Part shown: one piece after another, positions 12,618 to 28,674 of the stretch | Layout of the letters: each line of letters starts with the position of its first letter | Numbering within the stretch: position 1 is the stretch's first letter | Assembly (NCBI RefSeq): GCF_024112395.2 | Contig: NZ_CP078013.2 | Coordinates: forward strand, 2,356,001-2,420,000 | Origin: Pseudomonas pergaminensis | Lineage (GTDB): Bacteria > Pseudomonadota > Gammaproteobacteria > Pseudomonadales > Pseudomonadaceae | Length of the DNA: 64,000 bases | Direction of reading: 5' to 3' | Made by a program: the position numbers and the translations under genes | The notes under the pieces: model-generated | Told to the model about the DNA's origin: nothing | Databases searched by the model: none | Seen by the model: only the letters and a program-made list of their open reading frames with translations

Positions 12618-12720
12618 TTCGCCAAACGGGCGGCGCCGGCGCTGCCCGTTTACCTCCCAAGTCCCGTTTTTATCCTGATTCTTGACCCCGTTGCACAGGC
12701 TCAAGGGGGCAAACCCGACT

Positions 12721-13605
12721 ATGACAGCCCTGATTTCCCTGGGTCCGGTCGCCGCTACTGGCGCACCGACCCTGACGGTGACCGGCGGTTTGCATCAGGG
12801 CAGTTCCCTGGTGCTCGACCAGCCTGTCTACACCATCGGCGCCGACCTGGCGGCTGATTTGGTGCTCAGCGATCCCGGCATTGCCGGCCTGCATTTGCGC
12901 CTGCGTTTTGAGGGCGGCCAGGTGGCCGTTGAAGCGTTGGGCGGCGACGTACTGATCGCCGGCAATGTGCGAATCCCCCACGGCAGCGGCCATCGCGCGC
13001 GGTTGCCACTGCAGCTGCGTATCGGCACGGCGGGTGTGAGCCTGGCCTTGCCTGGCGGTGCTGAAAAACCGTCGGACGCGCCACGCAAATTGACCCCCTG
13101 GGTTGTCGCGTTCGTCCTGCTGTTTATCTGTGCCGGTGCGCTGGCAGTGCGTAGCGAAGCGCCCCTGCTGCCCGCAACCGCCGCCGCCGAGGTTGCGCCA
13201 GTGAAAAAAGCCTCCCGCGAGCAAGCCAAGGCCTGGTTGGAACAGCAACTGCAAGCCGCCCACCTGGACACCGTGAAGGTCAGCAACAGCAACGGCCAGC
13301 TCAGCGCCACCGGCACCTTCGAACAGTCGCAAAAACCGCAGTGGTTGGCCTTGCAGCAAGCCTTCGACCAGCGTTACGGCCAGCAGATCGTGCTCAACCC
13401 GCGCGTCGCCGTGCGCGCCGATGCAGCCGCCCCGCGGGTGCGCTTCCAAGCCGTATGGTTCGGCCCCCACCCCTACGTGATCAACGACAGCGGCAAGCGC
13501 CTGTACCCCGGCGCGGCGCTGGCAGACAACTGGGTGCTGGAGCGCATCGAAAACAACCAAGTCATCCTCGCCCGTGGCGCGGAGCGCTTCACCTTCACCC
13601 TATGA
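12721..13605 (+). CDS. sctD: Type III secretion inner-membrane ring protein SctD
   Basis: 294 residues from the ATG at 12721. The N-terminal domain (residues 15-120) is FHA-like (GSSLVLDQPVYTIGADLAADLVLSDPGIAGLHLRL). A single helix follows (LTPWVVAFVLLFICAGALAV, about 123-142), then a periplasmic domain starting KKASREQAKAWLEQQLQAA that resembles a ring-building BON repeat. SctD is usually 370-430 residues with several periplasmic repeats, so this one is short. It forms the outer of the two inner-membrane rings and contacts the secretin. Its stop overlaps the next gene. Confidence 0.85.
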   Translation: MTALISLGPVAATGAPTLTVTGGLHQGSSLVLDQPVYTIGADLAADLVLSDPGIAGLHLRLRFEGGQVAVEALGGDVLIAGNVRIPHGSGHRARLPLQLRIGTAGVSLALPGGAEKPSDAPRKLTPWVVAFVLLFICAGALAVRSEAPLLPATAAAEVAPVKKASREQAKAWLEQQLQAAHLDTVKVSNSNGQLSATGTFEQSQKPQWLALQQAFDQRYGQQIVLNPRVAVRADAAAPRVRFQAVWFGPHPYVINDSGKRLYPGAALADNWVLERIENNQVILARGAERFTFTL

Positions 13606-13970: not shown

Positions 13971-14305
13971 TGGCCCGCGATAACGACGACGCCGTGCAAC
14001 TGCTCAAGGGCATTGGCGAACTGTACCGGCGCAACGGCCAGTCCCAGCGCGCCCTGGTGATGTTGCTGATCGCCGTCAACGTCGCGCCTAACGACGGCGT
14101 GCTGCTGCGCTCGCTGGTGCTGGCCTTCACCGACAGCGGCGACCCGGTCCGCGCCCTTGGCGCCCTGGACCGCTTGGTGGCGCTCGAAGGCGAGTCCGCC
14201 AGCCTGATGCTGCTACGCGCCCGTGCCCTGTGGTACGGCGAACGCAAGGACGAAGCACGCCAATGCTTCAAGCGCTACCTGGCCGCACGCAGGGCCGGCG
14301 CATGA
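13970..14305 (+). CDS. TPR chaperone-like protein, SctY (YscY)-like
   Basis: 111 residues; the start overlaps the preceding stop by one base and the end overlaps SctV by 4 bp. It consists of about three TPR-type helical hairpins (GIGELYRRNGQSQRALVMLLIAVNVAPND, then ALGALDRLVALEG and ARALWYGERKDEARQCFKRYL). The small all-TPR fold, its place before SctV and after an X-like gene fit the YscY chaperone family. A generic secretion chaperone is the alternative. Confidence 0.6.
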   Translation: MARDNDDAVQLLKGIGELYRRNGQSQRALVMLLIAVNVAPNDGVLLRSLVLAFTDSGDPVRALGALDRLVALEGESASLMLLRARALWYGERKDEARQCFKRYLAARRAGA

Positions 14306-16437
14306 GTGCACTCAACCGCCTGAACAACCTGGCGCGCCTGGCTGCACAGCGCACTGACGTGATCATCGTCGCCTTTATGCTGATGGCGATTGTGATGATG
14401 ATCATCCCACTGCCTACCTATCTGGTGGATGCGCTGATCGGCCTCAACATTGCCCTGAGCATCCTGATCCTGATCGTCGCGTTCTACATCGGCCATTCCG
14501 TGGAGTTTTCCGCGTTGCCGCCGCTGATCCTGCTCAGCACGCTGTTTCGTCTGTCCCTGTCGATCACCACCACGCGCTTGATCCTGCTGCATGGCGACGC
14601 CGGCCATATCGTCAAGGCCTTCGGCGACTTCGTGATCGCCGGCCAAGTGGTGGTGGGCATGGTGGTGTTCCTGATCATCACCGTGGCGCAGTTCGTGGTC
14701 ATCACCAAGGGCGCCGAGCGTGTGGCGGAAGTGGCCGCGCGCTTCACCCTGGACGCAATGCCCGGCAAGCAGATGAGCATCGACAACGACCTGCGCAACG
14801 GCGATATCGACCAGCCCGAAGCACGCCGCCGCCGCTCGCGCCTGGAGCGTGAAAGCCAGATGTTCGGCGCGATGGACGGCGCCATGAAGTTTGTCAAAGG
14901 CGACGCCATCGCCGGTTTGGTGATCCTTGCCGTCAACCTGCTCGGCGGCATGCTGATCGGCATGATCGAGCGCGACATGCCATTCGGCGTGGCGGTGCAC
15001 ACCTACTCGTTGCTGACCGTGGGTGACGGCCTGATCGCCCAGATTCCGGCGCTGCTGATTTCCGTGGCGGCGGGCACCGTGGTCACCCGCGTCAACAGCG
15101 ACGGCGAAGCCGGCGACCTGGGCAGCGAAATCATCAAGCAACTGGGCGCCAGCTACCGCGCGCTGGGCTTGACCGCGTTGATCATGATTGGCGTGAGCCT
15201 GTTGCCAGGTTTCCCGACTTGGGTGTTCCTCGGCTTGTCCCTGGTGTTTGGCGGCGCGGCATTCATGATGTATCGCCGGCATAACCGTGGGACTGATGAA
15301 GGTGAGGTGCTGGTCGAGGCACCGGAGCCAGCGGTCGAGGTGCACGCCGAGCTGGACGACAACCTGCCGCCTGATACCCGCGTAGTGCTGACCCTCGGCA
15401 GCGGCGTGTCCCAGAGCGCGCCGCGCCAGTTGCTGCGCCAGCGCGTCGAAGCGTTGTGCCACGACCTGCGCACCGACCTCGGCGTGGACATGCCGGTGCC
15501 GGGCATCTACATGGAAGCCAAGGCCAGCCCAGGCAGTTTTCGCGTGTCCCTGGAAGGCGTGCCGGTGAGCGAAGGCGAATTGCCGATCAACTGCCTGCTG
15601 TTGCAGGACGACCCCGTGCACGTGCAATTGCTCGACATCACCACGGTACAGGCCGATTCACCGCTCAATGGCCGCAGCGCCCACTGGATCGAGCGTCAGC
15701 ATGAAGACACGTTGCGCAACGCCGGCATCGGTTTCCTGCTGCCCGACGAAGTCCTGCGCGGTGTGTTGGAACGCAGCCTGCGCCGCTACGCCGCCGACTT
15801 CCTCGGCATCCAGGAAACCCGCCTGTTACTGGAGCGCACCGAGGCCACGTACAGCGAACTGGTCAAGGAAGCCCTGCGCCTGGTGCCGCTGCAGCGGGTG
15901 GCTGAAACCCTGCGCTTGCTGGTCAGCGAAGGGGTGTCGATCCGCAACCAGCGCGCCTTGCTCGAAGCCATGGTGGAGTGGGGCGCCCGCGAAACCGACG
16001 CCGGGCGCCTGGCCGAACACTTGCGCGCGGCGTTGGCGCGGCAGATCAGCCATCAGTACGCCGACCGCAATCGGGTGATCGGCGCGCTGGTGCTGGCGCC
16101 AGGCCTGGAAGACCAGTTGCGCGGTTCCCTGCGTCGTCAGGAACCGCAGCGCGACCTGATCCCCGAAGAAGTCAGCCGCGCCTTGCTCGCGCAGTTGCGC
16201 CAGGCCTGCGAAAACACCCGCGAGGTCAACAGCGCGGTGTTGCTGGTGCACCCGGAACTGCGCCGCAGCCTGCGTCGCCTGGTCTTGCGCGGTGAGTTGG
16301 AGCTGGCGGTGCTGTCGTTCCGCGAGCTGGCCACTGAGTACAACCTGCAAGCGCTGGTGACCATCAGCCTCACCGAGATTTCCAACCGCCGCGCGCCTGC
16401 CGCGGCTTCCGTCACTGCCCTGGCGTCTGCCTCATGA
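14302..16437 (+). CDS. sctV: Type III secretion export gate protein SctV
   Basis: 711 residues from the ATG at 14302. Eight hydrophobic helices lie in residues 20-330. The FHIPEP-family cytoplasmic loop is well conserved (RLERESQMFGAMDGAMKFVKGD, residues 180-201), as is PLPTYLVDALIGLNIALSILIL near the start. Residues 350-711 form the cytoplasmic domain that builds the nonameric ring binding chaperone-substrate complexes. Length matches HrcV/RhcV/YscV. It is translationally coupled on both sides (ATGA overlaps). Confidence 0.97.
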   Translation: MSALNRLNNLARLAAQRTDVIIVAFMLMAIVMMIIPLPTYLVDALIGLNIALSILILIVAFYIGHSVEFSALPPLILLSTLFRLSLSITTTRLILLHGDAGHIVKAFGDFVIAGQVVVGMVVFLIITVAQFVVITKGAERVAEVAARFTLDAMPGKQMSIDNDLRNGDIDQPEARRRRSRLERESQMFGAMDGAMKFVKGDAIAGLVILAVNLLGGMLIGMIERDMPFGVAVHTYSLLTVGDGLIAQIPALLISVAAGTVVTRVNSDGEAGDLGSEIIKQLGASYRALGLTALIMIGVSLLPGFPTWVFLGLSLVFGGAAFMMYRRHNRGTDEGEVLVEAPEPAVEVHAELDDNLPPDTRVVLTLGSGVSQSAPRQLLRQRVEALCHDLRTDLGVDMPVPGIYMEAKASPGSFRVSLEGVPVSEGELPINCLLLQDDPVHVQLLDITTVQADSPLNGRSAHWIERQHEDTLRNAGIGFLLPDEVLRGVLERSLRRYAADFLGIQETRLLLERTEATYSELVKEALRLVPLQRVAETLRLLVSEGVSIRNQRALLEAMVEWGARETDAGRLAEHLRAALARQISHQYADRNRVIGALVLAPGLEDQLRGSLRRQEPQRDLIPEEVSRALLAQLRQACENTREVNSAVLLVHPELRRSLRRLVLRGELELAVLSFRELATEYNLQALVTISLTEISNRRAPAAASVTALASAS

Positions 16438-17714
16438 TGCGTTTTTGCGTGCTGTTGCTGAGTGTTGTTGCGTGTGTGAGCCAGGCTCAGGAAATCGCTG
16501 CCGGCGCCGGTGGCTCGATCGCCCTGTCCTCAGGGGAGGGGCGCATTCTGCACTTTGTCGCGCCCGTGGATTCGGTGCTGGTGGCCGAACCGAATGTGGC
16601 CGACCTGCAAGTGGTGTCACCCGGCACGATCTATATCTTCGGCAAGGCACCGGGCAATACCAGCCTGATCGCCCTCGGCAGCGACGGCAAGCAACTGGCG
16701 AGCCTGACCCTGGCCGTCAGCAGTGGCAGCCAGGCGGTGACCACCCCCATGCAGGCCTTGCACCCCGGCAGTGGCGCGCAGGTCAGCGGCGCCGGCAACC
16801 GCTTGATCGCCAAGGGCACGCTGGGTTCGGTGGCGGAAGCGACGGACCTTAACGCGTTGCTCAACCCACAGGGCCAAGGCTTCCAGAGCGCGATCAACAC
16901 CGCCGAGTACGCGGGGGCTGCCCAGGTAAACCTGCGGGTGCGGTTTGCCGAAGTGTCCCGCTCGGAGTTGCTGCACTACGGCGTGAACTGGAACGCGATG
17001 TTCAATAACGGCACCTTCTCGTTCGGCCTGATCACCGGTGGCCCATTGGCAGCGGCGTCGGCGGGGGGCTTGGCGGCGGCGGGCGCCGGCTCGGGCAATG
17101 TGAACATCGACGGCATGCTCGACGCCTTGCAGGCCAACGGCGTGCTGCAGATTCTCGCCGAGCCGAATATCACCGCCATGACCGGCCAGACCGCCAGCTT
17201 CCTCGCGGGTGGCGAAGTGGCGATCCCGGTGCCGGTCAACCGTGACCTGGTGGGCATCGAATACAAGTCGTTCGGTGTGTCGCTGCTGTTCAATCCGACC
17301 CTGCTGCCCAACGGCCGCATCGCCCTGCAAGTACGCCCGGAAGTCAGCAGTGTGGTCAGCGGCGGCACCGTGGATTTCGGCAACTTCCACGTGCCGTCCT
17401 TCAGCGTGCGCCGCGCCGACACGCGGGTGGAAGTCGGCAGTGGGCAGACCTTCGCCATCGCCGGCCTGTTCCAGCGCGAAAGCAGCCAGGACATCGAGAA
17501 ACTGCCGCTGCTGGGGGACCTGCCGATCCTCGGCAACCTGTTCCGCTCCAAGCGCTTCCAGCGCAATGAAACCGAGTTGGTGATCCTTATCACGCCCTAT
17601 CTGGTTGAGCCGGTGCGCGGTCGCACCCTCGCCACGCCCCTGGACGCACAACCGGCTACCGCAGCGGCCACCGGACCGCGCAGCGGCGGGGCGTTCGGTT
17701 TCTACATGAATTGA
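16434..17714 (+). CDS. sctC2: Secretin C-terminal half (SctC2/RhcC2-like, CpaC-like)
   Basis: 426 residues with a signal peptide (MMRFCVLLLSVVACVSQAQ). Residues about 20-95 form a pilus-type N-domain (GEGRILHFVAPVDSVLVAEPNVADLQVVSPGTIYIFGKAPGNTSL-type, as in Tad CpaC and RhcC2), then the secretin core at about 150-395 including VPVNRDLVGIEYKSFGVSLL and RRADTRVEVGSGQTFAIAGL. It forms the outer-membrane pore. The canonical N0/N1 ring domains of SctC are not here but in the separate gene at 19432-19998, as in rhizobial systems. Confidence 0.9.
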   Translation: MMRFCVLLLSVVACVSQAQEIAAGAGGSIALSSGEGRILHFVAPVDSVLVAEPNVADLQVVSPGTIYIFGKAPGNTSLIALGSDGKQLASLTLAVSSGSQAVTTPMQALHPGSGAQVSGAGNRLIAKGTLGSVAEATDLNALLNPQGQGFQSAINTAEYAGAAQVNLRVRFAEVSRSELLHYGVNWNAMFNNGTFSFGLITGGPLAAASAGGLAAAGAGSGNVNIDGMLDALQANGVLQILAEPNITAMTGQTASFLAGGEVAIPVPVNRDLVGIEYKSFGVSLLFNPTLLPNGRIALQVRPEVSSVVSGGTVDFGNFHVPSFSVRRADTRVEVGSGQTFAIAGLFQRESSQDIEKLPLLGDLPILGNLFRSKRFQRNETELVILITPYLVEPVRGRTLATPLDAQPATAAATGPRSGGAFGFYMN

Positions 17715-18612: not shown

Positions 18613-18621
18613 TGTGTTGTG

Positions 18622-19386
18622 TCAGTTGGGGGCTACCAACCCCAGCTCTTTTGCTTGCGCCACCGGGTCGCTGATGGCTTTGATGCGTTTCGCTTCCGCC
18701 ACCAACCGCTCACGCTCGGCAGCCGGAATGTCATCCAGCGGCAGTGTGGCAACCCGCTGCTCATGACCGGCCAGCACCATCACCAACAGCACATTGCGTT
18801 GATGCCGAGGCAAGGCGCGGGGCGATTGGGTGACCGAGGCGATGGTGTCCAACGCCTGTTGCGACTGCCCACCCAGCGCGTACGCCAGGGCCAGGTTGCA
18901 ACGGTTGTCGAGGTCGTCGGGCTTGAGGCTCAGGCTCTTGGCGAACGCGCTTTGCGCTGCACCGGCCTGGCCATTGAGGATCTGCGCGACACCCAGGCGG
19001 GTGTAGGCAACCGGCAAGTGGCTGATCTCGGCGGCCTGGCCCAGGGCGGTGACCGCACGCTGAGTCTTGCCCAACTGCAATTGCGCGGTACCCAGGCCGA
19101 GCAGGGCGTCGGCATTGCGCGCGTCGAAACCCAGGGCCTGCTGGTAGGCACGCTCGGCGCCCGCCGCGTCCTTGGCGTCGAGCCTGGCCTGGCCGAGCTT
19201 GAGCCACAGCTCGATACCGGCGCCAGGTTGCTGCGCCGCACGCTCGTACAGCGCCGCCGCACTGGCATAGTCGCCGCGTTTGCTCAGGTCATCGGCCAGT
19301 TGCAAGGACTTGTCGGAATCGGTCGCGGGCTTGCTGGAGCAGGCGGCCAGCAACAGGGTACTGGCGAGCAGGAAATTCTTGGGCAT
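18622..19386 (-). CDS. TPR lipoprotein (TadD-like) inserted between the secretin halves
   Basis: 254 residues from the ATG at 19386. The lipoprotein signal is MPKNFLLASTLLLAACSS. About five TPR hairpins follow (DYASAAALYERAAQQPG, AGAERAYQQALGFDARNADALLGLG, QRAVTALGQAAEIS, and so on). It is transcribed against the rest of the cluster and starts only about 45 bp from the N-terminal secretin half. Length, lipobox and repeats resemble TadD of Tad pili, which supports secretin assembly. As recalled, rhizobial and P. syringae T3SS-2 clusters also carry a TPR gene near their split secretin. Confidence 0.75.
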   Translation of the reverse strand: MPKNFLLASTLLLAACSSKPATDSDKSLQLADDLSKRGDYASAAALYERAAQQPGAGIELWLKLGQARLDAKDAAGAERAYQQALGFDARNADALLGLGTAQLQLGKTQRAVTALGQAAEISHLPVAYTRLGVAQILNGQAGAAQSAFAKSLSLKPDDLDNRCNLALAYALGGQSQQALDTIASVTQSPRALPRHQRNVLLVMVLAGHEQRVATLPLDDIPAAERERLVAEAKRIKAISDPVAQAKELGLVAPN

Positions 19387-19431
19387 CGTCACAACTCGTC
19401 TGGCGAAGGCGGACGCCATGTAAGCATATTT

Positions 19432-19998
19432 TTGCTGGCTGTCCTATGCCTGTTCAGCAGCAGTTTGGCCCGCGCCGCCGAAGAGCCCGCGTGGTTCTCC
19501 CAGCCGTACGCCTACGTGCTGGTCGACCAGGATGTACGCAGCGCCCTGGAAGAATTCGGCCACAACCTCGAGGTGCCGCTGGTGCTCTCCGACAAGGTCC
19601 GCGGCAAGGCCCGCAGCACCCTTCGCGCGGCCACCGCCGGGGAGTTCCTGCAGGCCCTGTGCAGCACCAACGGCCTCACCTGGTACTTCGACGGCAACCT
19701 GCTGTACCTCAACGCCAGCGATGAAATCAGCACCAAGCTGTTCAAGGCCAGCGCCCTGGACCTGGACCAGTTGCAGGCCTACCTCAACACCCTCGATGTG
19801 TTCGGCCAGCAGCTGTCCATGCGCAACGGCCCCGAGGGCGACGAAGTGTTCGTGTCCGGACCACCGCCGTACCTGGCGCTGGTGCAACAGCATGTCGACC
19901 ACCTGCACCCCAAGGCCGTGGCCACCCCGGTGGCGCGCGAGCGGGGCGTGCGGGTGTTCCGTGGCGCCCAAGTCAGTACCGAAACCCCAACCCAGTAA
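19432..19998 (+). CDS. sctC1: Secretin N-terminal half (SctC1/NolW-like)
   Basis: About 188 residues. The body holds the N0-N1 domains of type III secretins: VDQDVRSALEEFGHNLEVPLVLS, GLTWYFDGNLLYLNAS and GDEVFVSGPPPYLALVQQHVDHL. No pore domain follows; that part is the gene at 16434-17714. The start is uncertain. No in-frame ATG or GTG exists between the last upstream region and the signal-like LLAVLCLFSSSLARAAEE, so TTG at 19432 is the best guess. An out-of-frame ATG at 19418, directly followed by TAA, sits behind a good ribosome binding site (AAGGCGGA). A 5' lesion is possible. Confidence 0.75.
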   Translation: MLAVLCLFSSSLARAAEEPAWFSQPYAYVLVDQDVRSALEEFGHNLEVPLVLSDKVRGKARSTLRAATAGEFLQALCSTNGLTWYFDGNLLYLNASDEISTKLFKASALDLDQLQAYLNTLDVFGQQLSMRNGPEGDEVFVSGPPPYLALVQQHVDHLHPKAVATPVARERGVRVFRGAQVSTETPTQ

Positions 19999-20010: not shown

Positions 20011-20244
20011 ATGTCCGTAACGGCCGTAGACAGCAATCTCGCCCCTGGTGGCGCCAGCCCTGAAGCCAAGTTCAATGCTGCGGTGGATAACGCCAAGGCC
20101 GCCGACAAACCTGCCGAGCCGACCGACGCCGAGCTCACCGATTCGTTCATCACCCAGGCGGTCACCTACGGCGGCCAGTTCATCATCATGCCCAAGATGC
20201 AGGAACTGCTGAACGACGCCATGTCCGATGACGACGAAGAATAG
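20011..20244 (+). CDS. Small acidic protein, needle/pilin-position gene
   Basis: 77 residues, starting after AAAGGAG. An Ala/Pro/Glu-rich N-terminal half is followed by a hydrophobic amphipathic segment (DSFITQAVTYGGQFIIMPKMQELL) and an acidic tail DDDEE. No signal peptide or cysteine is present. It lies between the secretin N-half and SctI, the position of the extracellular subunit (for example hrpA) in some clusters. It does not show the usual SctF WQ/P motif, so needle, secreted accessory protein or chaperone all remain possible. Confidence 0.7.
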   Translation: MSVTAVDSNLAPGGASPEAKFNAAVDNAKAADKPAEPTDAELTDSFITQAVTYGGQFIIMPKMQELLNDAMSDDDEE

Positions 20245-20253: not shown

Positions 20254-20688
20254 ATGACTATCAGTCTCGCCGCCGGCGCTTCGGCGTTGCCGCCGTCTGC
20301 CGGCGCGGGGCCCGCTGGGGCCTCGCAGAACCTGTTCGAGCACATGGCCAACACCGCCAAGGGCATGCCCGAAGGCGCCAGCCCGCACCAGATCGGCTCG
20401 GGCCTGATGGAGCGGATGAACAGTTTCATCGATCGCACACGGGCTTTTTCCGAGCGTGCCGACCTGCTCACCAATAACCCGTCGGCACCGCCGCCAGCCC
20501 AGGCAGAGATCCGCACAGCCAGTGCCTCGCCATCGGCAGAGCCGGGGAAAAAAGTCGGCGAGCAACAGGTCGACCAGATCGTCCACTCCCTGGGCAAGAT
20601 GTTCGACTACTCCATCGAAACCCAGATGGTGGTGCGCGGCGCGACGCAGATTTCCGGGTCCGCCAACACCTTGCTCAAGGGTCAATAA
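20254..20688 (+). CDS. sctI: Type III secretion inner-rod protein SctI (NolB/HrpB-like)
   Basis: 144 residues, preceded by AGGAAG. The C-terminal end EQQVDQIVHSLGKMFDYSIETQM followed by VRGATQISGSANTLLKGQ is the conserved SctI finish (TLLKGQ), which forms the inner rod linking needle and export gate. The N-terminal half is Ala/Pro/Gly-rich and poorly conserved, as usual. It is placed directly before SctJ, as nolB is in rhizobia. Confidence 0.85.
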   Translation: MTISLAAGASALPPSAGAGPAGASQNLFEHMANTAKGMPEGASPHQIGSGLMERMNSFIDRTRAFSERADLLTNNPSAPPPAQAEIRTASASPSAEPGKKVGEQQVDQIVHSLGKMFDYSIETQMVVRGATQISGSANTLLKGQ

Positions 20689-20692
20689 CCGT

Positions 20693-21475
20693 ATGCCAAG
20701 CCCAAACCGCGCCCTGCGCCTGTTGCTGATCGGCCTGCTCGCCAGCCTGCTGCAAGCGTGCAACACCGACCTCTACACCAACCTCAGCGAGCGTGACGCC
20801 AACGCGATGGTCGCGGTGCTGCTGCGCGGTGGCATCCCGGCGGAACGCAAGGCCCAGGACAATGGCCAGCTCAAGGTGGTGGTCGACGAATCGCGCTTTG
20901 CCGAAGCCATGACCCTGCTTGATAACGCCGGCCTGCCGCAGCAGAGTTTTTCTAACATGGGCGAGGTGTTCAAGGGCAATGGCCTGGTGTCGTCCCCCGT
21001 GCAGGAGCGGGCGCAGATGATCTATGCGTTGAGCGAAGAACTGTCCCACTCGGTGTCGCAGATCGACGGCATCGTTGCCGCCCGTGTGCACGTGGTGCTG
21101 CCGGACAACGACTTGCTCAGGCGCGTGATCTCGCCGTCGTCGGCCTCGGTGCTGGTGCGTTACGACCCGGGCACCGACATCAACACGCTGATCCCACAGA
21201 TCAAGACCCTGGTGGCCAACGGCATCTCCGGGCTCAGCTACGACGGTGTCTCGGTGACCGCGATCAAGGCCGCTGTCGCCATCAGCCAAAACCCGGCGCA
21301 ACCACGGCTGGCGCGCTTCCTGGGCCTGTGGCTGCTGGAAGATAACCTGCCACAGGCACGCTTGATGTTCGGTGCGCTGCTCCTGATCGCACTCGGTGCG
21401 CTGGGCGTGCTGGCCCGCCAGCAATGGGTGCGCCGCCAGTCCCAGGCGCTGTATGTGCTCAAGGAGGGTGAATGA
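20693..21475 (+). CDS. sctJ: Type III secretion inner-ring lipoprotein SctJ
   Basis: 260 residues from the ATG at 20693. The signal peptide has a lipobox (LLASLLQAC). The conserved start TDLYTNLSERDANAMVAVLLRGGIPAERK and the segment VQERAQMIYALSEELSHSVSQIDGIVAARVHVVLPDND are diagnostic of SctJ/FliF. One C-terminal helix (ARLMFGALLLIALGALGVLARQQWV) anchors it. It builds the 24-mer inner ring with SctD. The stop overlaps the next start. Confidence 0.96.
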   Translation: MPSPNRALRLLLIGLLASLLQACNTDLYTNLSERDANAMVAVLLRGGIPAERKAQDNGQLKVVVDESRFAEAMTLLDNAGLPQQSFSNMGEVFKGNGLVSSPVQERAQMIYALSEELSHSVSQIDGIVAARVHVVLPDNDLLRRVISPSSASVLVRYDPGTDINTLIPQIKTLVANGISGLSYDGVSVTAIKAAVAISQNPAQPRLARFLGLWLLEDNLPQARLMFGALLLIALGALGVLARQQWVRRQSQALYVLKEGE

Positions 21476-22086
21476 GTTTGTTCGAGCGTTGGCAGGGGCT
21501 GGTGGCCGAGCCCTTGCAGTTCGTGCGTGGGGCCAGCCTGGGCGGGTGTTTTGCCGATGAGTTGCCGGAAGCGGTGCTGCAGGCGATGCAGGGCCAGCCG
21601 CGCTTTCGCCAGCGACTGGAACAGCTGCTGGTCAGCCATTACCAATTGGCGCCCATGGATCAATTGATCCCACCTGTGGCGGCGGACTTGCCGGTGTTGC
21701 TGCTGTCGCCGGCGCAGTTCGCCCGCTTGCCGAGGCAGTGCGGGGCGATCTGGCATGCCTCGACCCTGAGCCGGGAGATCCGTCGCGAGGTGGTCAATGA
21801 GCTGCGCGAAGGCCTCGGCGCCGAAGTCTTCGTGGCCGCCCTGGCCTTGCGCCAACTGGGCGGCGCGGCGGATCTGCTGCGTGATCCCGCTGAATTGGTC
21901 GAGGCCATTGACCGCGACGGCCAGGGCTGTGTCGCCGCGTGGTTGCACGCCCAACATGCCGACTGGCAGGGCTGGTTGCGTTTGCGGTTTGCCTTTCCCC
22001 AGGGTGACGGCGCCAGGGTGCCCCGCGACCTGGAGATCGTCCAGGCCGCTGCCGCGTGCCTGCTGGCCGAGGAGATTACGCCATGA
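21472..22086 (+). CDS. sctK: Type III secretion sorting-platform protein SctK (NolU/HrpD-like)
   Basis: 204 residues. It is a soluble Leu/Ala/Gln-rich protein without clear motifs. Its place between SctJ and SctL with four-base overlaps, its length, and features such as an early FERWQGLVAEPLQFV and a late WLRLRFAFPQGD fit SctK, the cytoplasmic adaptor between the SctD ring and the SctQ pods. Confidence 0.75.
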   Translation: MSLFERWQGLVAEPLQFVRGASLGGCFADELPEAVLQAMQGQPRFRQRLEQLLVSHYQLAPMDQLIPPVAADLPVLLLSPAQFARLPRQCGAIWHASTLSREIRREVVNELREGLGAEVFVAALALRQLGGAADLLRDPAELVEAIDRDGQGCVAAWLHAQHADWQGWLRLRFAFPQGDGARVPRDLEIVQAAAACLLAEEITP

Positions 22087-22667
22087 GTGAATTGCCGAGT
22101 CGTCCCACCGCCCGCATCCTGCGTGCCGAAGAGGCCGCGTTGTGGAGCGACGGTTTTGCCTTCCTGCAAGCGGCCAAGGCACAGGCCGAACAGATCAAGA
22201 CCGACAGCGAGCAATGGCTGAGCAGCGCCCGCGCCGAGGGCTTTGAAAGTGCTCGGCAGGAAGGCGCCGAACAGGTGGCGCAGTTGCTGCTGCAGACCCA
22301 GTCCCAGGTGCAGCACTACTTGAGCAGCCTGGAAGGGTCCCTGGCCGACCTGGCCCTGGGCATCGTGCGCGAAGTGCTGGGCGAACTGGATAACGCCGAT
22401 CGCGTGGTGCGCAGTACCCGCCAGGCCTTGAGTGCGTTTCGCCAGGACCAGGCCCTGACCCTGTGGGTGCCGCCGGCGGAAGTCGATGCATTGCGCCAGC
22501 GCCTTACGCTGGAAGGGCTGGCGATTGCGGTGGACGCCGATGAACAGTTGCACGCCGGCCAAGCACGCCTGAACAGCCCGGCCGGTTCCGTGGAGTTGGG
22601 CCTTGAAGCCCAATTGCACAACCTGCGTCGCAGCTTGTTGCCTTTCGCCGAAGAGGGCGTGGCATGA
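22083..22667 (+). CDS. sctL: Type III secretion stator protein SctL (NolV/HrpE-like)
   Basis: 194 residues from the ATG at 22083 (ATGA overlap with SctK). It begins with ILRAEEAALWSDGFAFLQAAKAQAEQIK, the typical SctL/FliH start, then a helical Ala/Gln-rich stalk and a globular C-terminal domain (RQALSAFRQDQALTLWVPP and later). It binds and restrains the ATPase SctN and connects it to SctQ. A longer upstream frame overlaps SctK and is not used. Confidence 0.88.
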   Translation: MSELPSRPTARILRAEEAALWSDGFAFLQAAKAQAEQIKTDSEQWLSSARAEGFESARQEGAEQVAQLLLQTQSQVQHYLSSLEGSLADLALGIVREVLGELDNADRVVRSTRQALSAFRQDQALTLWVPPAEVDALRQRLTLEGLAIAVDADEQLHAGQARLNSPAGSVELGLEAQLHNLRRSLLPFAEEGVA

Positions 22668-23986
22668 ACCTTGAGCAGTTGCTGCCTCGACTCAGCGCAC
22701 GCCTGGCCCAGGCGCGTCTGCGGCCCATGCACGGCACGGTGCTGAGCATTCGTGGTGTGCTGCTGCGGGCCAGTGTGGCGGGCGCGAGCATTGGCGAATT
22801 GTGCCAACTGCGCGAACCCGGCAGCGCACGCAGCCTGAGTGCCGAGGTGATAGGTTTTGATGGTGACGAGGCGATCCTGTCGCCCATTGGCTCCATGGAG
22901 GGGCTGTCCACGCGCACCCAGATCACCGCCACTGGCGAGACCCTGGGCGTGGCGGTCGGTGATGCGCAGTTGGGGCGGGTGATCAGCCCCATGGGAGATT
23001 TCCTCGATGGCGACGGCCTTCCACCGACCGTGGCCTTGCAGCATTACCCGCTGCATGCCGAACCGCCGGCACCGTTTTCCCGGCAACTGATCGTGCGCTC
23101 GATGGCCCTGGGCATTCGCTCCATCGATGGCTTGTTGACCTTGGCCCAGGGCCAGCGCATGGGGATTTTTGGTGAGCCCGGCGTGGGCAAGTCGTCGTTG
23201 TTGGCCAGCATCATTCGCAACAGCGAAGCGGATGTGATCGTGATCGGGCTGATTGGCGAGCGGGGCAGGGAGGTGCGCGAGCTGCTCGATGTGCAACTGG
23301 ATACCCAGGCCCGTGCGCGCACGGTGGCGGTGGTCGCGACGTCGGATCGTCCGGCGGCCGAGCGGGTACGTGCGGCGTTTGTCGCTACCACTCTGGCTGA
23401 ATACCACCGTGACCAGGGTCGTACTGTGTTGCTGTTGATGGACAGCCTGACTCGCTTTGCCCGTGCGCAGCGTGAGATCGGCCTGGCTGTGGGTGAGCCG
23501 CCGACTCGGCGGGGTTATCCGCCGTCGTTTTTCTCGGCTTTGCCGCGTCTGCTGGAGCGTGCGGGGCCGGGGCCGACCGGGAGTATTACCGCGTTGTACA
23601 CGGTGCTCACCGAGGGCGATGCGGCCAGTGATCCGGTGGCGGAGGAGGCTCGTTCGATTCTTGATGGGCATATCGCGTTGAGTGCCGAGCTGGCTCAGCG
23701 TAATTACTTTCCGGCGGTGGATGTGTTGCGCAGTCGTAGCCGGTTGATGGAGCAGGTGGCGGGTGAGGAGCATAAGCGTTTGGCCATGCGGATTCGTGAG
23801 TTGATGGCGCGGTATGGCGAGATCGAGATGCTGATTCGGGTGGGCGAATACTCCGCTGGCAGCGACCCGCTGGCGGACGAAGCGATCAACCGTCACGCGG
23901 CCATCGAAGCCTTCTTGCGTCAGAACGCTGATGAACCGAGCAGCCTTGAACAGACGTTGGTACGCATGCGGCAGGTACTGGCATGA
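22664..23986 (+). CDS. sctN: Type III secretion ATPase SctN
   Basis: 440 residues. F1-type ATPase core: Walker A GIFGEPGVGKSSLLAS, the VIGLIGERGREVREL segment, Walker B TVLLLMDSLTRFARAQREIGLA, and GSITALYTVLTEGDAASDPVAEEARSILDGHIALS. Length fits HrcN/RhcN. It unfolds and detaches substrates from chaperones at the export gate. It overlaps SctL by 4 bp. Downstream, the operon is interrupted by a 444-bp repeat region before SctO. Confidence 0.97.
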   Translation: MNLEQLLPRLSARLAQARLRPMHGTVLSIRGVLLRASVAGASIGELCQLREPGSARSLSAEVIGFDGDEAILSPIGSMEGLSTRTQITATGETLGVAVGDAQLGRVISPMGDFLDGDGLPPTVALQHYPLHAEPPAPFSRQLIVRSMALGIRSIDGLLTLAQGQRMGIFGEPGVGKSSLLASIIRNSEADVIVIGLIGERGREVRELLDVQLDTQARARTVAVVATSDRPAAERVRAAFVATTLAEYHRDQGRTVLLLMDSLTRFARAQREIGLAVGEPPTRRGYPPSFFSALPRLLERAGPGPTGSITALYTVLTEGDAASDPVAEEARSILDGHIALSAELAQRNYFPAVDVLRSRSRLMEQVAGEEHKRLAMRIRELMARYGEIEMLIRVGEYSAGSDPLADEAINRHAAIEAFLRQNADEPSSLEQTLVRMRQVLA

Positions 23987-24009
23987 AGCTGGATGCATTC
24001 GCCGGTAGT

Positions 24010-24039
24010 TGTAGGAGCTGGCTTGCCGGAGATGGCGGT
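24010..24039. repeat. REP sequence between SctN and SctO
   Basis: GTAGGAGCTGGCTTGCCGGA followed by GATGGCGGTC is a single REP unit, placed 24 bp after the SctN stop. Confidence 0.75.
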
Positions 24040-24045
24040 CTGTGG

Positions 24046-24360
24046 GTGTACATATCCATTGCTGCGGTAACGGCGACTTATGGTTCCGCTCTTACAGCGG
24101 GTCACTTTTGGAAGGACCCAAAAGTAACCAAAAGGTCCTCGCCCCACCACTCGGTGCCTCGCTTAGGCTCGGCATGCCCTCACTCCGGCTTGAATCCGTG
24201 GGCCGCCGCCACGCGCCATCCATGGCGCGGGGCGGCTAACCCGGCGTCCTGCCGGGTTACCCACGGATTCAAGCCTGCGTTCGGCCAGCGTGGTTTTACG
24301 GGGCGCCTCAGATCAACAGCAAGATCAAAGGCAAGAGCAAGATCAAGAGCGGCTCGCTTC
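24046..24360 (+). repeat. Long intergenic repeat element, copy 3 (full form)
   Basis: The fullest copy begins GTACATATCCATTGCTGCGG, carries the TCACTTTTGGAAGGACCCAA block, and has a hairpin with 15-bp perfect arms (24188-24202 and 24260-24274) around the GCGCCATCCATGGCGC palindrome. It ends with an AGATCAA-rich tail. It separates SctN from SctO inside the secretion operon. Confidence 0.8.
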
Positions 24361-24430
24361 GCATCGTGGGTACGTGTAGGAGCTTCATGGGTTACTTGAT
24401 GTGGTTTGGCATGAAAATGGAGACAACCGA

Positions 24431-24877
24431 ATGAAAACCGAACAACTGCGCACCCTGCAATCCTTGCGGGTCTTGCGTGAGCAAAGGGCCGCGAGCCAAC
24501 TGGCTGCGCAGCAGCAGCGCTGTGAGCAGACGCACGGTGTGTTGACCGACGCCAAGGAGCAGTTGCGTTTGCACCGGGAAGCCATTGCCGAGGAGGCGCG
24601 CCAGGTGTATGCGTCGCTCACCGAGGGGTTGTCGGTGGCGAGTTGGCAGGCTGCTCAGGACCGTTTGCGCGGTTTGTCGGATGACCAGCAGCAATTGGAA
24701 AACGATGTGACCCATGTGTCCATTACCCTGGAAAGCCAGGAGCGTGAGCGTGACTTGTTCCGTCAGGAACGCTTGAGCCGCCAGCGTCAGTCGGATGCCT
24801 GGCAAAGCCTGCTGGAAGGCCGTGAGAGCGATGAGCGTCGGGTGGATGAGTTGCGTGATGAAGGCACCGGCACATGA
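24431..24877 (+). CDS. sctO: Type III secretion ATPase stalk SctO (Y4yJ/HrpO-like)
   Basis: 148 residues from the ATG at 24431. It is almost entirely coiled coil, rich in Arg, Gln and Glu (LRTLQSLRVLREQRAASQLAAQQQRCEQTHGVL and later ESQERERDLFRQERLSRQRQ). This FliJ-like two-helix hairpin sits in the ATPase ring and couples it to SctV. The order N-O-Q fits the rhizobial arrangement. A four-base overlap joins it to SctQ. Confidence 0.85.
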   Translation: MKTEQLRTLQSLRVLREQRAASQLAAQQQRCEQTHGVLTDAKEQLRLHREAIAEEARQVYASLTEGLSVASWQAAQDRLRGLSDDQQQLENDVTHVSITLESQERERDLFRQERLSRQRQSDAWQSLLEGRESDERRVDELRDEGTGT

Positions 24878-25875
24878 TCACAGCCCTTGCCGACCCGCTG
24901 TCGCCGTGGTTGACCCACTACGACCCGGCGTTGCTGGCCCTGCATAACCAGGTGCATCGCCGCCGTCGTCCCTGGCAGGGCCGTTGTGCCGGGCAGGACT
25001 TGCGTGTGTCCTGGGCCGCCGAGCCCCAGGTGCTTGTGGCACCGCATGAGGTGTTGCTGGCGCTCGGTCGCGCTCCGGCGCGGCTGCGTTTGCCCGCCGC
25101 TGCGCTGGAGCAATTGTTGCTACCGCTGGCGTTGCCGTTCGATGTGAAGCAACTGCCGGCGTTGCCGCGTTCGTTGTTGCTGGAGTTGGCGGTGCTCGAC
25201 CTGATCGAGGCCTTGGAACCGTTGCTCGGCCATCCGGTGCAGTTGCTCGACGCCGCTGACGGCCAGGCGGTGTTTGCCATGCAAGTCGCGCTGGAGCTGA
25301 GCTTCGGCAGCCAGCCGGCGGTGAGCGTCCAACTGGACCTGAGCGAAGGCGCCGCCGTGCTGGTGGCGCAGTTGCTGGCGCAATACGCACCGATCGCGCC
25401 CGACCCGTTGCCGGCCCTGCGCCAGACCCTGGCGGTGGTGGCGGGGCGGCAATGGTTGAACCTCGGCGAGCTGCGCAGCCTGCGCCCCGGCGATGTGCTG
25501 ATGCTGGAGCAAGGCCCCGGCCTGCTACTGGACCTCGACGGCCGCTTGCAGGCCCGCTGCCAATACCAGGGTGAAGTCCTGCGCCTGCAGGAAGCCTTGA
25601 AAGCCCCCTTTCTGGAACCGGAGAACACCATGACCGATGTTGATGCCGCCACGGCGCTGGATGACTTGCCGTTGAAACTGGTGTGCCAGGTGGGCAGCCT
25701 GGAACTGACCCTGGCGCAGTTGCGTGAACTGGGCGCGGGCAGCCTGTTGCAGCTCAACACGCCGGGCGTGGACAGCGTCGATCTGATGGTCAACGGCCGC
25801 CGCGTCGGCCAGGGCCAACTGGTGAAAATCGGTGACGGCTTGGGCGTGCGCCTGCTGAGTTTCGCCACCCCATGA
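24874..25875 (+). CDS. sctQ: Type III secretion C-ring/pod protein SctQ
   Basis: 333 residues. The N-terminal region is divergent, and the C-terminal surface-presentation (SPOA) domain is clear (LPLKLVCQVGSLELTLAQLRELGAGSLLQLNTPGVDSVDLMVNGRRVGQGQLVKIGDGLGVRLLSF, about residues 262-331). It forms the sorting-platform pods. An in-frame ATG at 25630 (residue 253), preceded by CCGGAGAACACC, could start a short SctQ-C product of 81 residues, as known for several SctQ genes. No separate SctP gene precedes it. Confidence 0.9.
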   Translation: MITALADPLSPWLTHYDPALLALHNQVHRRRRPWQGRCAGQDLRVSWAAEPQVLVAPHEVLLALGRAPARLRLPAAALEQLLLPLALPFDVKQLPALPRSLLLELAVLDLIEALEPLLGHPVQLLDAADGQAVFAMQVALELSFGSQPAVSVQLDLSEGAAVLVAQLLAQYAPIAPDPLPALRQTLAVVAGRQWLNLGELRSLRPGDVLMLEQGPGLLLDLDGRLQARCQYQGEVLRLQEALKAPFLEPENTMTDVDAATALDDLPLKLVCQVGSLELTLAQLRELGAGSLLQLNTPGVDSVDLMVNGRRVGQGQLVKIGDGLGVRLLSFATP

Positions 25876-26525
25876 CCGGTTATCAGCCGAACCTGATCGA
25901 GATCATCCTGGTCGTTGCGACGATCGGGTTGATCCCGTTGGCGGTGGTGACGCTCACCGGGTTCATGAAGATCTCGGTGGTGCTGTTCCTGATCCGCAAC
26001 GCCCTCGGCGTGCAACAGACCCCGCCGAACCTGGTGCTGTACGGCATTGCGCTGATCCTCTCGGTGTACGTGACCACGCCGTTGATTGGCGACATGTACC
26101 GGCAGGTGGAGGGCCGCGACCTCAACATCGAGCATGTGGAGCAACTCAAGGACCTGGGGGACGCCCTGCGCCCGCCGTTGCAGGCGCATTTGGCGCGGTT
26201 CGCCAATGAGTCCGAGCGTGGTTTTTTCGTGCAGGCCACCGAGACCATCTGGTCGCCGCAAGCGCGGGCCGACCTGCGTGACGATGACCTGGTGGTGCTG
26301 ATTCCGGCGTTTGTCAGCTCGGAGCTGACCCGTGCGTTCGAGATCGGCTTTTTGCTCTATATCCCGTTCCTGGTGGTGGACCTGCTGGTGTCCAACGTGC
26401 TGATGGCGATGGGCATGTCGATGGTCTCGCCGAACCTGATCTCCATTCCGCTGAAGATCTTTTTATTCGTGTCCCTGAGCGGCTGGTCGCGCCTGATGCA
26501 CGGTTTGATTCTGAGTTACGGCTGA
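25872..26525 (+). CDS. sctR: Type III secretion export gate protein SctR
   Basis: 217 residues. Typical FliP/SctR segments are GLIPLAVVTLTGFMKISVVLFLIRNALGVQQTPPNLVLYGIALIL and FVSSELTRAFEIGFLLYIPFLVVDLLVSNVLMAMGMSM. Four hydrophobic helices are seen. It forms the core of the R5T1S4 export gate. It overlaps SctQ as ATGA. Confidence 0.97.
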   Translation: MTGYQPNLIEIILVVATIGLIPLAVVTLTGFMKISVVLFLIRNALGVQQTPPNLVLYGIALILSVYVTTPLIGDMYRQVEGRDLNIEHVEQLKDLGDALRPPLQAHLARFANESERGFFVQATETIWSPQARADLRDDDLVVLIPAFVSSELTRAFEIGFLLYIPFLVVDLLVSNVLMAMGMSMVSPNLISIPLKIFLFVSLSGWSRLMHGLILSYG

Positions 26526-26535: not shown

Positions 26536-26805
26536 ATGGGCCAGGACGTATTCCTGTCATTGATGAAACAGGCACTGATGACCGTGCTGATGCTCTCCGC
26601 GCCGGCGTTGGGGGTGGCGATTATCGTGGGCTTGAGCGTGGGCTTGTTCCAGGCGCTGACGCAGATCCAGGACCAGACCCTGCCCCAGGTGGTGAAGCTG
26701 GTGGCGGTGCTGCTGACCATCGTCTTCCTGGGCCCGGTACTCGCCGGGCAAGTGGCGGAGCTGGGCGGCCAGGTGCTGGACAATTTTCCGATGTGGACGC
26801 GCTGA
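26536..26805 (+). CDS. sctS: Type III secretion export gate protein SctS
   Basis: 89 residues with two hydrophobic helices (LMTVLMLSAPALGVAIIVGLSVGLFQALTQIQDQ and VVKLVAVLLTIVFLGPVLAGQV). The QALTQIQDQTLPQVVK loop is the family signature. It starts 10 bp after SctR and ends 6 bp before SctT. Confidence 0.96.
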   Translation: MGQDVFLSLMKQALMTVLMLSAPALGVAIIVGLSVGLFQALTQIQDQTLPQVVKLVAVLLTIVFLGPVLAGQVAELGGQVLDNFPMWTR

Positions 26806-26811: not shown

Positions 26812-27624
26812 ATGGATGCCAGCCTGACCGCGCAGTTCCTGGAAGTCGCCTACCCGGTGATCAGCGCCGCCTCGCTCGCTGCCTGCCGTGCCATGGGCGT
26901 GGTGGTGATCACCCCGGCGTTCAACCGCTTGGGCCTCACCGGGATGATCCGCGGCTGCGTGGCGGTGGCGATTTCCATCCCGATGTTCTTCCCGGTGTTC
27001 GAAGCGCTGACGTCAATGCCGGAGCACGGCAGCGTGTTTATCGCCGGGTTGCTGATCAAGGAATTCCTGATCGGCATTCTTATCGGCCTGCTGTTTGGCA
27101 TTCCGTTCTGGGCGGCCGAGGTGGCGGGGGAGTTGATCGACCTGCAACGCGGCTCGACCATGGCGCAACTGGTGGACCCGTTGTCGTCCGGGGAATCGAG
27201 CGTGATGGCGACGCTGCTCACGGTGATGCTGATCACGCTGTTCTTCATGTCCGGCGGGTTCATCCTGATGGTCGACGGTTATTACCACAGCTACCAGCTC
27301 TGGCCGGTCACCTCGTTTACGCCGGTCTTCGCCAGCTCGGCGTTGCTGGCGGTGTTGTCGATCCTCGACCAGATCATGCGTGTTGGCGTGCTGATGGTCT
27401 CGCCGTTGCTGATTGCGCTGCTGGTTACCGACCTGATGCTCGCCTACCTGTCGCGCATGGCGCCGAACCTGCACATCTTCGACCTGTCGCTGCCGGTGAA
27501 GAACCTGTTTTTCACGATCCTGATGGTGATCTACATCGGCTTCCTGATCCCGATGATGCTCGACCAACTGGCGGAGTTTCGCGGCACCGTCGAACTGCTC
27601 AAGGCCCTGGCCGGCATGGAGTAG
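26812..27624 (+). CDS. sctT: Type III secretion export gate protein SctT
   Basis: 270 residues with about six to seven hydrophobic helices. It shows family features such as FLIGILIGLLFGIPFWAAEVAGELIDLQRGSTMAQL and the central FFMSGGFILMVDGYYHSYQLWPV. It closes the export gate with SctR and SctS. Spacing to SctU is 3 bp. Confidence 0.96.
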   Translation: MDASLTAQFLEVAYPVISAASLAACRAMGVVVITPAFNRLGLTGMIRGCVAVAISIPMFFPVFEALTSMPEHGSVFIAGLLIKEFLIGILIGLLFGIPFWAAEVAGELIDLQRGSTMAQLVDPLSSGESSVMATLLTVMLITLFFMSGGFILMVDGYYHSYQLWPVTSFTPVFASSALLAVLSILDQIMRVGVLMVSPLLIALLVTDLMLAYLSRMAPNLHIFDLSLPVKNLFFTILMVIYIGFLIPMMLDQLAEFRGTVELLKALAGME

Positions 27625-27627: not shown

Positions 27628-28674
27628 ATGGCCGATACCAGTGAAGAGAAATCCCAGCCGGCGACGGACAAGAAGCTCCAGGACGCGCGCAAGAAAGGCC
27701 AGGTCGCCAAGAGCCAGGACCTGGTGTCGGGCATGGTTATCCTGTTCTGCACCCTGTGCATCTCGATCCTCGCGCCGCGCGCCAAGGCCCAGGTCACCGC
27801 ACTGATCGACCTGACCGCGCGGATCTACATCGAACCGTTCGCCACCGTTTGGCCCCGGGTGCTCGACCACGCCGAGCAACTGGTGATCGGCATCACCCTG
27901 CCGGTGATGGCGGTGACCACCGGCGTGGTGATCCTGACCAATATCATCACCATGCGCGGCTTTGTGTTCTCGGTGGACCCGATCAAACCTGAGTTCAAGC
28001 GCATCAACCCGGCAGAGGGCCTGAAGAAGATCTTTGCCCTGCGCAACCTGGTGGAGTTCATCAAGGGCCTGATCAAGGTGCATGTGTTGGCGATTGCGTT
28101 CTACGTGGTCGGCAAGCACGCGTTGCAGGCGCTGATGGAATCGTCGCGCTGTGGGGCGGAGTGCATGGAGTCGACGTTTTTCCTGGTGCTCAAGCCGCTG
28201 GTGTTCACCGTGCTCTGCGCCTTCATTGTGGTGGGCGCGGTGGACGTGATGATGCAGCGCTGGCTGTTCGGCCGCGACATGAAGATGACCCGCAGCGAAA
28301 CCAAGCGCGAACGCAAGGACATCGACGGCGACCCGCTGATCAAGAGCGAACGCCGGCGCCAGCGCAATGAAATGCAGGCGCTGGCCACCAAGCTGGGTCT
28401 GAACCGCGCCTCGATGATGATCGGCACCACCGACGGCTGGGTGATTGGCGTGCGTTACGTGCGCGGGGAAACCCCGGTGCCGGTGATCGTGTGCCGGGCA
28501 TCGCCGGAGGAGGCGTTGTTGATGTTGCAGGAGGCGTACGACCTGGGCATTCCCCACGCGCCGGACAAGGCCCTGGCTGCTGACATTGCGCGCAAGACCG
28601 TGCCCGGCGACCCGGTGCCGGATGCCTCATTCCAGGCCGTGGCGGACTGGCTGGTGGCGGCCCGCCTTATCTGA
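27628..28674 (+). CDS. sctU: Type III secretion switch protein SctU, NPTH motif absent
   Basis: 348 residues. The N-terminal half is canonical (KKLQDARKKGQVAKSQDL, four hydrophobic helices, FSVDPIKPEFKRINPAEGLKKIFALRNLVEFIKGLIK, RDMKMTRSETKRERKDIDGDPLIKSERR). The cytoplasmic half should contain NPTH, where the protein cleaves itself to switch substrate classes. Here the aligned position reads IGTTDGWVIGVRY (TTDG at residues 267-270, bases 28426-28437). Neither the cleavage Asn nor the Pro is present. The frame is intact, so this is a real substitution and not a frameshift. It is the last gene of the secretion operon. Confidence 0.95.
   Translation: MADTSEEKSQPATDKKLQDARKKGQVAKSQDLVSGMVILFCTLCISILAPRAKAQVTALIDLTARIYIEPFATVWPRVLDHAEQLVIGITLPVMAVTTGVVILTNIITMRGFVFSVDPIKPEFKRINPAEGLKKIFALRNLVEFIKGLIKVHVLAIAFYVVGKHALQALMESSRCGAECMESTFFLVLKPLVFTVLCAFIVVGAVDVMMQRWLFGRDMKMTRSETKRERKDIDGDPLIKSERRRQRNEMQALATKLGLNRASMMIGTTDGWVIGVRYVRGETPVPVIVCRASPEEALLMLQEAYDLGIPHAPDKALAADIARKTVPGDPVPDASFQAVADWLVAARLI

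Follow-up and report, generated by a model that had tools for sequence, protein, structure and literature searches.

SctU without the NPTH cleavage motif in a rhizobium-like type III secretion cluster of Pseudomonas pergaminensis

The SctU protein and its loop

We examined a window of 64,000 nucleotides from Pseudomonas pergaminensis (NCBI RefSeq assembly GCF_024112395.2, contig NZ_CP078013.2, positions 2,356,001 to 2,420,000 of the forward strand), which contains a gene cluster for a type III secretion system (T3SS). An open reading frame (ORF) at 27628-28674 on the plus strand encodes a 348-residue SctU, the export switch protein of such systems. In canonical systems the NPTH motif of this protein is cut, upon which the PTH loop is reoriented (PMC3040844). 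The initial annotation of the window had claimed that TTDG replaces NPTH in an SctU that is otherwise canonical and has an open frame. The features of the gene are as follows.

27628..28674, plus strand: sctU (HrcII-U / RhcU type), export switch protein without NPTH (PF01312, E 2.5e-74)
28414..28425, plus strand: predicted strand ahead of the loop, residues 263-266 (AlphaFold2 model)
28426..28437, plus strand: loop residues 267-270, TTDG where NPTH is expected (sequence, alignments, structural alignment)
28441..28482, plus strand: strand and turn, residues 272-285, VIGVRYVRGETPVP, clade signature near the loop (residue shares among 58 NPTH-less sequences)
28588..28590, plus strand: codon 321 (Ala), position of the ruler-bypass tyrosine (alignment columns)

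The PF01312 model (Bac_export_2) matched residues 6-342 with 251 bits against a curated cut-off of 24.4, placing the protein over its whole length in the FlhB/SctU family, and the modelled cytoplasmic domain has the fold typical of that family. Codons 267-270 read ACC ACC GAC GGC, giving TTDG precisely at 28426-28437. The site aligned without gaps to the NPTH of the flagellar-type FlhB of the same genome (L001), to two distant proteins (L028, L029) and to the PscU, YscU and EscU domains; the second SctU of the genome (L002) showed three additional residues upstream of the site when aligned. In the structural alignment, residues 268-347 of the model paired with EscU 263-342 and Salmonella FlhB 270-349, so that T267 sits on the cleaved Asn. 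The natural YscU, EscU, CdsU and FlhB cytoplasmic domains, unlike this one, all carry NPTH. A search along the whole protein found no NPTH; the sole Asn-Pro is at residue 127, and the only Asn residues of the C-terminal domain (216-348) are 247 and 259. The loop thus lacks the Asn-Pro of an autocleaving SctU, and the structure-based alignment revealed no NPTH equivalent elsewhere in the protein. When Foldseek was run with the domain, 10 of the first 11 matches were cleavage-site mutants, which fits an unbroken chain. Sequence, alignments and structural superposition thus bear out the replacement. A sequencing error, the possibility raised against it, was ruled out, as the same TTDG occurs in ten other named-strain loci (L005-L014) and farther loci grade into other loops.

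Besides this SctU, the genome encodes FlhB and a further SctU (at 860.8 kb), both with NPTH, as well as a short ORF resembling the C-terminal part of FlhB (G000:C1:1999152-1999678; L004, L106), which adjoins a FliK-type gene and lies apart from the flagellar-type flhB.

Loss of the motif among relatives

Of the 25 genome loci picked up by a pattern scan, 23 (L005-L027), from Pseudomonas strains and one other gammaproteobacterium, had no NPTH at the site. The loop reads TTDG in the closest and VSGG, VAGG, TANG, IGGH, IGGN, TGDG, DGSG or SEGG farther out; the remaining two loci, at 29% identity, carry NPTH. Of 298 same-genus genomes, drawn from a larger group and including the genome itself, 33 had a match at E <= 1e-50. 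Orthologues at 54-100% identity were present in 26 of these genomes, all without NPTH and with zero internal stops, and the 7 other matches (31-33% identity) all had NPTH or NPNH.

The loss was also found in rhizobia. RhcU of Sinorhizobium fredii NGR234 pNGR234a (L160), the type case of Rhc-I, has LVYRGTAVLIGLRYVRGET at the site and no NPTH; this sequence was read later and stands outside every count and tree. NPTH is likewise missing from the Rhc-I-like SctU of S. fredii SMH12 (encoded near nolB, nolT, nolU, nolV, sctN and nopP), Bradyrhizobium sp. CCBAU 53340 and Mesorhizobium amorphae, from the Rhc-II-like SctU of Rhizobium johnstonii, NGR234 pNGR234b and Phyllobacterium zundukense, and from an SctU on Klebsiella pneumoniae plasmid pAP855. 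Records without annotation or listing received their Rhc subgroup label from gene context and tree. The Rhc-I-like proteins, RhcU of pNGR234a among them, are assigned to the same clade as the P. pergaminensis SctU and share its GLRYVRG strand, and their systems also have an sctO-like gene immediately before sctQ; they differ in being only 37-38% identical and in a loop shorter by one residue. SctU proteins of another kind, from R. etli IE4803 and B. japonicum pN03G, have NPTH. The pAP855 record (L094 1-9044) holds an Rhc-like T3SS cluster with its NPTH-less SctU and no slot for the ruler protein SctP, and the plasmid is typed as conjugative.

In the Rhc-III-like SctU of R. phaseoli, Rhizobium sp. 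TAL182, R. leguminosarum and R. rhizoryzae (L097 9989-10786; L107 1489-2286; L108 from about 3001; L109 1522-2340), homology stops at about residue 254 of the P. pergaminensis protein. The frame closes 8 residues (three records) or 22 residues (R. leguminosarum) later, leaving no C-terminal domain, although the membrane part shares the clade. The label is based on the lack of sctO between sctN and sctQ (L097), a pectate lyase gene next to sctU (L097, L107) and the tree position. The missing domain was sought in all frames of 20.7 kb for L097 at E up to 10, with no credible match, and none was seen when L108 was read by eye in three frames. The SctU genes of Halomonas sp. PA16-9 (L099 2001-3031) and Phyllobacterium sp. 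A18/5-2 (L100 2001-3039) matched in two frames and therefore look frameshifted in the records.

From 103 loci with an SctU/FlhB match, three short ones (L097, L099 and L100, none with NPTH) and 10 exact copies were removed, leaving 90 sequences, 58 without NPTH and 32 with NPxH. In a tree built on columns 1-215 (numbered as in the P. pergaminensis protein), which excludes the C-terminal domain, the loss of NPTH was one change (support 94/89), as it was in 93% of 200 bootstrap trees; long branches that meet are present in this tree among the NPTH rows and L074. A tree on columns 1-240 that took in three Rhc-III-like rows, 25 of the 58 NPTH-less and 29 NPTH rows, with the long-branch L029, L089 and L104 excluded, supported the NPTH-less side at 99/94. 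On midpoint rooting its neighbours were three NPTH SctU (L083, L102, L103; 97/91). Among them L102, from Mycetohabitans, is called Hrp2-like because of the HrpB1-type gene beside it, which makes HrcU of the Hrp2 systems the nearest NPTH-bearing relatives. The P. pergaminensis SctU grouped with those of Pseudomonas syringae T3SS-2 type (L017, 78% identical) and pNGR234b (L031, 46% identical), both NPTH-less, as expected of Rhc subgroup II; pNGR234b forms a deeper branch. A census of 40 further loci added two in the clade, both motif-less; 37 of the 38 others had NPxH, and in one (L127) NPTR replaces NPTH. Outside the NPTH-less clade, NPxH was thus present in 69 of the 70 loci read and Asn-Pro in 70 of 70, in a sample taken by similarity to the query and not at random from FlhB. 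The alignment with HrcU/RhcU/YscU-type and Pseudomonas homologues that had been proposed as a check thus points to a shared, ancestral loss: the motif was probably lost once, before the Rhc I, II and III-like clusters diverged.

The loop itself has drifted. At column 267 the 58 NPTH-less sequences have T 28, D 6, S 6, V 5, R 5, I 3, A 3 and E 2, and Asn in none, compared with Asn in 32 of 32 other SctU/FlhB. At column 270, 40 sequences have G and one has H, and the loop is shorter by one residue in 10. The strand after it is near-invariant in the clade (G-x-R-Y-V-R-G-E-T): R276 occurs in 58/58 versus 13/32 NPxH sequences, G274 in 57/58 versus 6/32, V or I at 278 in 58/58 versus 3/32, G280 in 56/58 versus 16/32 and E281 in 56/58 versus 18/32. 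Among representatives under 80% identity (26 NPTH-less, 28 NPxH), the mean majority share was 0.38 in the NPTH-less loop versus 0.98 in the NPxH loop, and 0.83 versus 0.60 in columns 271-285. The ratio of nonsynonymous to synonymous rates (dN/dS) against the P. pergaminensis sctU was 0.014 (L005), 0.04 (L009), 0.08 (L013), 0.17 (L017), 0.22 (L021) and 0.37 (L025), with a loop dN of 0 for the first three. Over 23 relatives, mean pN/pS was 0.56 in the loop versus 0.24 in the whole gene, so that the turn looks looser. From these sequence comparisons, sctU is an open and constrained gene.

A second position also differs. Tyr-to-Asp changes at HrcU Y318, YscU Y317 and FlhB Y323 bypass the loss of the ruler (PMC3040844); EscU Y316D is an equivalent change, known to us from a Protein Data Bank title. 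The tyrosine lies 54 residues beyond the NPTH Asn in HrcU, YscU and FlhB. At the corresponding column 321, Tyr, Phe or His occurs in 28/32 NPxH versus 4/58 NPTH-less sequences (24/28 versus 2/26 among representatives). The Fisher value for this association, 3.7e-9, is no valid test, because the change is a single event on the tree. Of the claim of an otherwise canonical SctU, the open frame therefore stood, while columns 272-281 and 321 of the C-terminal domain differ.

The secretion cluster and its missing partners

The other T3SS genes found in the window are listed below.

12682..13605, plus strand: sctD-like (FHA, YscD periplasmic domain, Y4YQ C-terminal domain; family matches)
14230..16437, plus strand: sctV (FHIPEP, E 6.7e-206)
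16434..17714, plus strand: sctC2, pore half of the secretin (Secretin, E 5.9e-43)
19546..19998, plus strand: sctC1, N-terminal secretin half (TIGR02516, E 9.5e-22), inside ORF 18106-19998, start approximate
20011..20244, plus strand: SctF needle-subunit candidate, 77-residue ORF (size and place, no family match)
20254..20688, plus strand: SctI/NolB-like candidate (weak NolB match, E 0.057)
20690..21475, plus strand: sctJ (TIGR02544, E 8.7e-65)
21472..22086, plus strand: SctK/NolU candidate (position, no family match)
22056..22667, plus strand: sctL (T3SS_SCTL, E 1.2e-15)
22664..23986, plus strand: sctN, ATPase (family match)
23990..24420, no strand assigned: dispersed repeat between sctN and sctO, holding a 138-residue ORF (68 own-genome matches, pieces counted)
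24428..24877, plus strand: sctO, FliJ-like (weak FliJ match, E 0.025, and position)
24874..25875, plus strand: sctQ (TIGR02551, E 2.3e-29)
25872..26525, plus strand: sctR (family match)
26536..26805, plus strand: sctS (family matches)
26812..27624, plus strand: sctT (family match)

The placement of the SctF candidate follows a gene order that we take to hold here. The split secretin (C1, C2) together with an SctO, the latter a weak match, agrees with subgroup II of the Rhc family, as does the lack of an hrpP/yscP gene between sctO and sctQ, whose ORFs overlap at 24874-24877. The overlap leaves no slot for SctP, the ruler held to trigger the switch. The 138-residue ORF between sctN and sctO was rejected as SctP, since it lies inside the dispersed repeat; it had no family match. 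The repeat occupies the same place in L005 and is absent from the stretches of L007 and L011 that were read.

The P. syringae T3SS-2 and the pNGR234b system, which represent Rhc subgroup II (Gazi et al. 2012, PMC3574062), share the split secretin and, like the window, have no gene between sctO and sctQ. In P. syringae pv. phaseolicola 1448a the sctN-sctO interval holds an insertion sequence element (PMC3574062) where P. pergaminensis has the dispersed repeat. Constitutive expression has been reported for the rhizobium-like T3SS of P. syringae pv. phaseolicola (PMC6069116).

The slot was surveyed at 33 loci, of which L156, where 18 kb contained neither sctN nor sctR, and L155, with a different gene layout, were not counted. 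In the sctN-sctR interval, the 25 NPTH-less loci with sctO had zero ORFs between the sctO- and sctQ-sized ones, one Rhc-III-like locus had sctQ only, and 5 of 5 comparable NPTH loci had one more tandem ORF of 173-353 residues before sctQ, an SctP candidate by position. An additional ORF before sctO was present in three NPTH-less loci: the window, L006 (82 residues) and L012 (194 residues), the latter two with matches to the window repeat elsewhere in the locus. The apparent lack of SctP, noticed in the initial annotation, was thus upheld by position, and it is published for all Rhc systems: hrpP/yscP is absent from every Rhc subgroup according to PMC3574062, and PMC3973906 states that SctP had not been found in rhizobia, leaving open rhizobial-specific analogues. 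The HpaP model PF09483 had no match in the genome, and its control had none anywhere either. The FliK-type Flg_hook model (PF02120) had two matches in the genome, none inside the window.

We also looked for the gatekeeper SctW (HrpJ, PF07201). The only such gene of the genome lies near the other SctU, at a distance of about 8 kb, and 1.5 Mb away from the cluster described here. None was found in 6 of 6 Rhc-like plasmid records, where only the plasmid was searched and the Pfam model may miss diverged SctW, and one was present in 4 of 4 genomes picked for an NPTH system. Of two more genomes with a closely similar SctU, one has a distant copy and the other none. Table 1 of PMC3574062 has a dash under both SctW and SctP for NGR234 pNGR234a.

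Upstream of the sctC1 coding part lies a tandem repeat (18134-18362, 72-bp unit, 3.2 copies), owing to which ORF 18106-19998 seems longer than the sctC1 gene. A lipoprotein gene weakly resembling CpaD of the tad pilus family, below the cut-off, adjoins sctC2 (17711-18109), and an annotated CpaD-like gene stands next to sctU in Bradyrhizobium (L092 5205-5837). These neighbours and the pilus-type N domain of SctC2 hint that the secretin part may be tad-like in origin.

Possible modes of export without the cleavage site

We consider it likely that the P. pergaminensis SctU belongs to a T3SS of the Rhc family (subgroup II), in which the cleavage switch was lost a single time and SctU serves as a one-piece substrate acceptor. 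As the loss of NPTH is common to the rhizobial and pseudomonad relatives, the machine probably dispenses with a step that is regarded as general. Of the two explanations offered at the outset, absence of autocleavage is supported, the loss being shared by a family that includes T3SS-1 of NGR234, reported to be functional. Functional Rhc systems are reported for S. fredii NGR234, USDA257 and HH103, B. japonicum, B. elkanii and M. loti (PMC3973906), among which the SctU sequence was read for NGR234.

A single loss of the Asn-Pro site would have occurred in the ancestor of the Rhc I, II and III-like clusters. The C-terminal domain would keep its usual hairpin fold as one chain, with T267-G270 a mere turn between two strands, and, presumably uncleaved, would be held permanently in a state that accepts substrates. 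Export of pilus parts, translocators and effectors may then proceed without an irreversible, ruler-triggered switch, in an order perhaps set by expression, chaperones and affinity, and the Rhc-III-like clusters would have discarded the domain entirely.

In Xanthomonas, HrcU, which differs from the present SctU in carrying NPTH, is cleaved, and NPTH is required for binding of HpaC (SctP) and partly for that of HrpB2. HrcU N264A keeps export of HrpB2 and loses that of translocon and effectors, and P265G abolishes binding and export of HrpB2 (all PMC3040844, whose introduction is more guarded on whether cleavage is needed). In EscU N262A of enteropathogenic Escherichia coli, effector export is very low (PMC3189125). 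Since uncleavable canonical mutants are impaired and Rhc systems without the motif are reported functional, the Rhc family must have compensated. Judging from the alignments, candidates for the compensation are the RYVRGET strand and the loss of the bypass tyrosine; we infer a domain that resembles one after the switch and requires no cut and no ruler. The Rhc-III-like clusters without the domain would be the extreme case of switch-free export.

A broader reading, which we put forward tentatively as it is somewhat less likely to hold than to fail, is that Rhc systems are T3SSs without the known checkpoints: cleavage switch, SctP and SctW would have been lost in one ancestral line, SctU would be a permanent one-piece gate with the RYVRGET strand as a new substrate dock, and Rhc-III would have discarded the domain.

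Several points weigh against export without a switch. The open-access PMC literature searched yielded no experiment on an SctU of the Rhc family. The losses of NPTH, SctP slot, SctW and tyrosine are essentially one event on the tree, so that their association has n = 1. Because uncleavable EscU N262A and HrcU N264A block or nearly block late export, a state locked early is predicted unless the domain has changed. Gly stands at the column of HrcU P265G in 17/58 Rhc sequences. The tyrosine column does not follow the motif strictly, 4/32 NPxH sequences lacking Tyr, Phe or His and 4/58 NPTH-less ones retaining Tyr or Phe. Finally, SctP and SctW are fast-evolving, and unrecognised analogues may therefore exist.

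The strongest rival, although rather unlikely in our estimate, is a conformational switch of the uncleaved protein: an Rhc-specific protein not yet recognised would trigger it, and the loss of NPTH would have changed only the docking site. Strong, clade-specific constraint on the RYVRGET strand is what a binding site would show, and PMC3973906 leaves room for rhizobial-specific analogues. However, no candidate lies between sctO and sctQ, the rest of the cluster not having been searched for one; the bypass tyrosine is mostly gone, and in Rhc-III-like SctU the whole surface is absent.

It is improbable that SctU is still cut by another chemistry or a protease and switches as usual. The kept fold, with strands flanking the loop in the AlphaFold2 model, and the Asn (L017 and L045, both TANG) or Asp-Pro (L101) that some members have in the loop would suit this, but the clade conserves no loop residue, column 267 is never Asn, the loop is a residue shorter in some members and Rhc-III-like SctU has no domain to cut.

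Least probable is the other explanation offered at the outset, a decaying cluster whose degenerate SctU merely lost an essential motif: the patchy occurrence in the genus, the two repeats, the two-frame Halomonas and Phyllobacterium orthologues and the loosened loop among distant relatives would fit, but none of the 26 same-genus orthologues has a stop, dN/dS stays at 0.014-0.37 in six pairs, near-invariant residues adjoin the loop and the motif is missing clade-wide, pNGR234a RhcU included.

The Rhc family and its lack of SctP are already published. We did not find in print the ancestral loss of cleavage site, tyrosine and Rhc-III domain: among the matches listed from open-access PMC papers none reports loss of the cleavage site, and no paper there contains both RhcU and NPTH; in one that contains RhcU and autocleavage, the latter refers to an effector in the reference list. 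The word NPTH is absent from the main text of PMC3574062, and the available text of PMC1084347 and PMC6069116 is silent on NPTH in rhizobial proteins, and that of PMC3459982 and PMC7064499 contributes nothing either.

The role of self-cutting in SctU/FlhB is known mostly from mutants that break or weaken export. The Rhc family would be a natural one, reported to assemble pili and secrete effectors without cut site, ruler and, in part, the whole domain; it would separate the purpose of cleavage from the needs of export, and can be tested in legume symbionts. If the switch-free reading is true, natural Rhc systems would show that cleavage and ruler are dispensable for ordered export. NPTH or SctP would also be unreliable marks of a working system, and a like caution applies to family models: the top NCBIfam match of the P. 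pergaminensis SctU, the NCBI SctU equivalog FlhB_rel_III, scores it at 271.6 bits, under the cut-off of 358.
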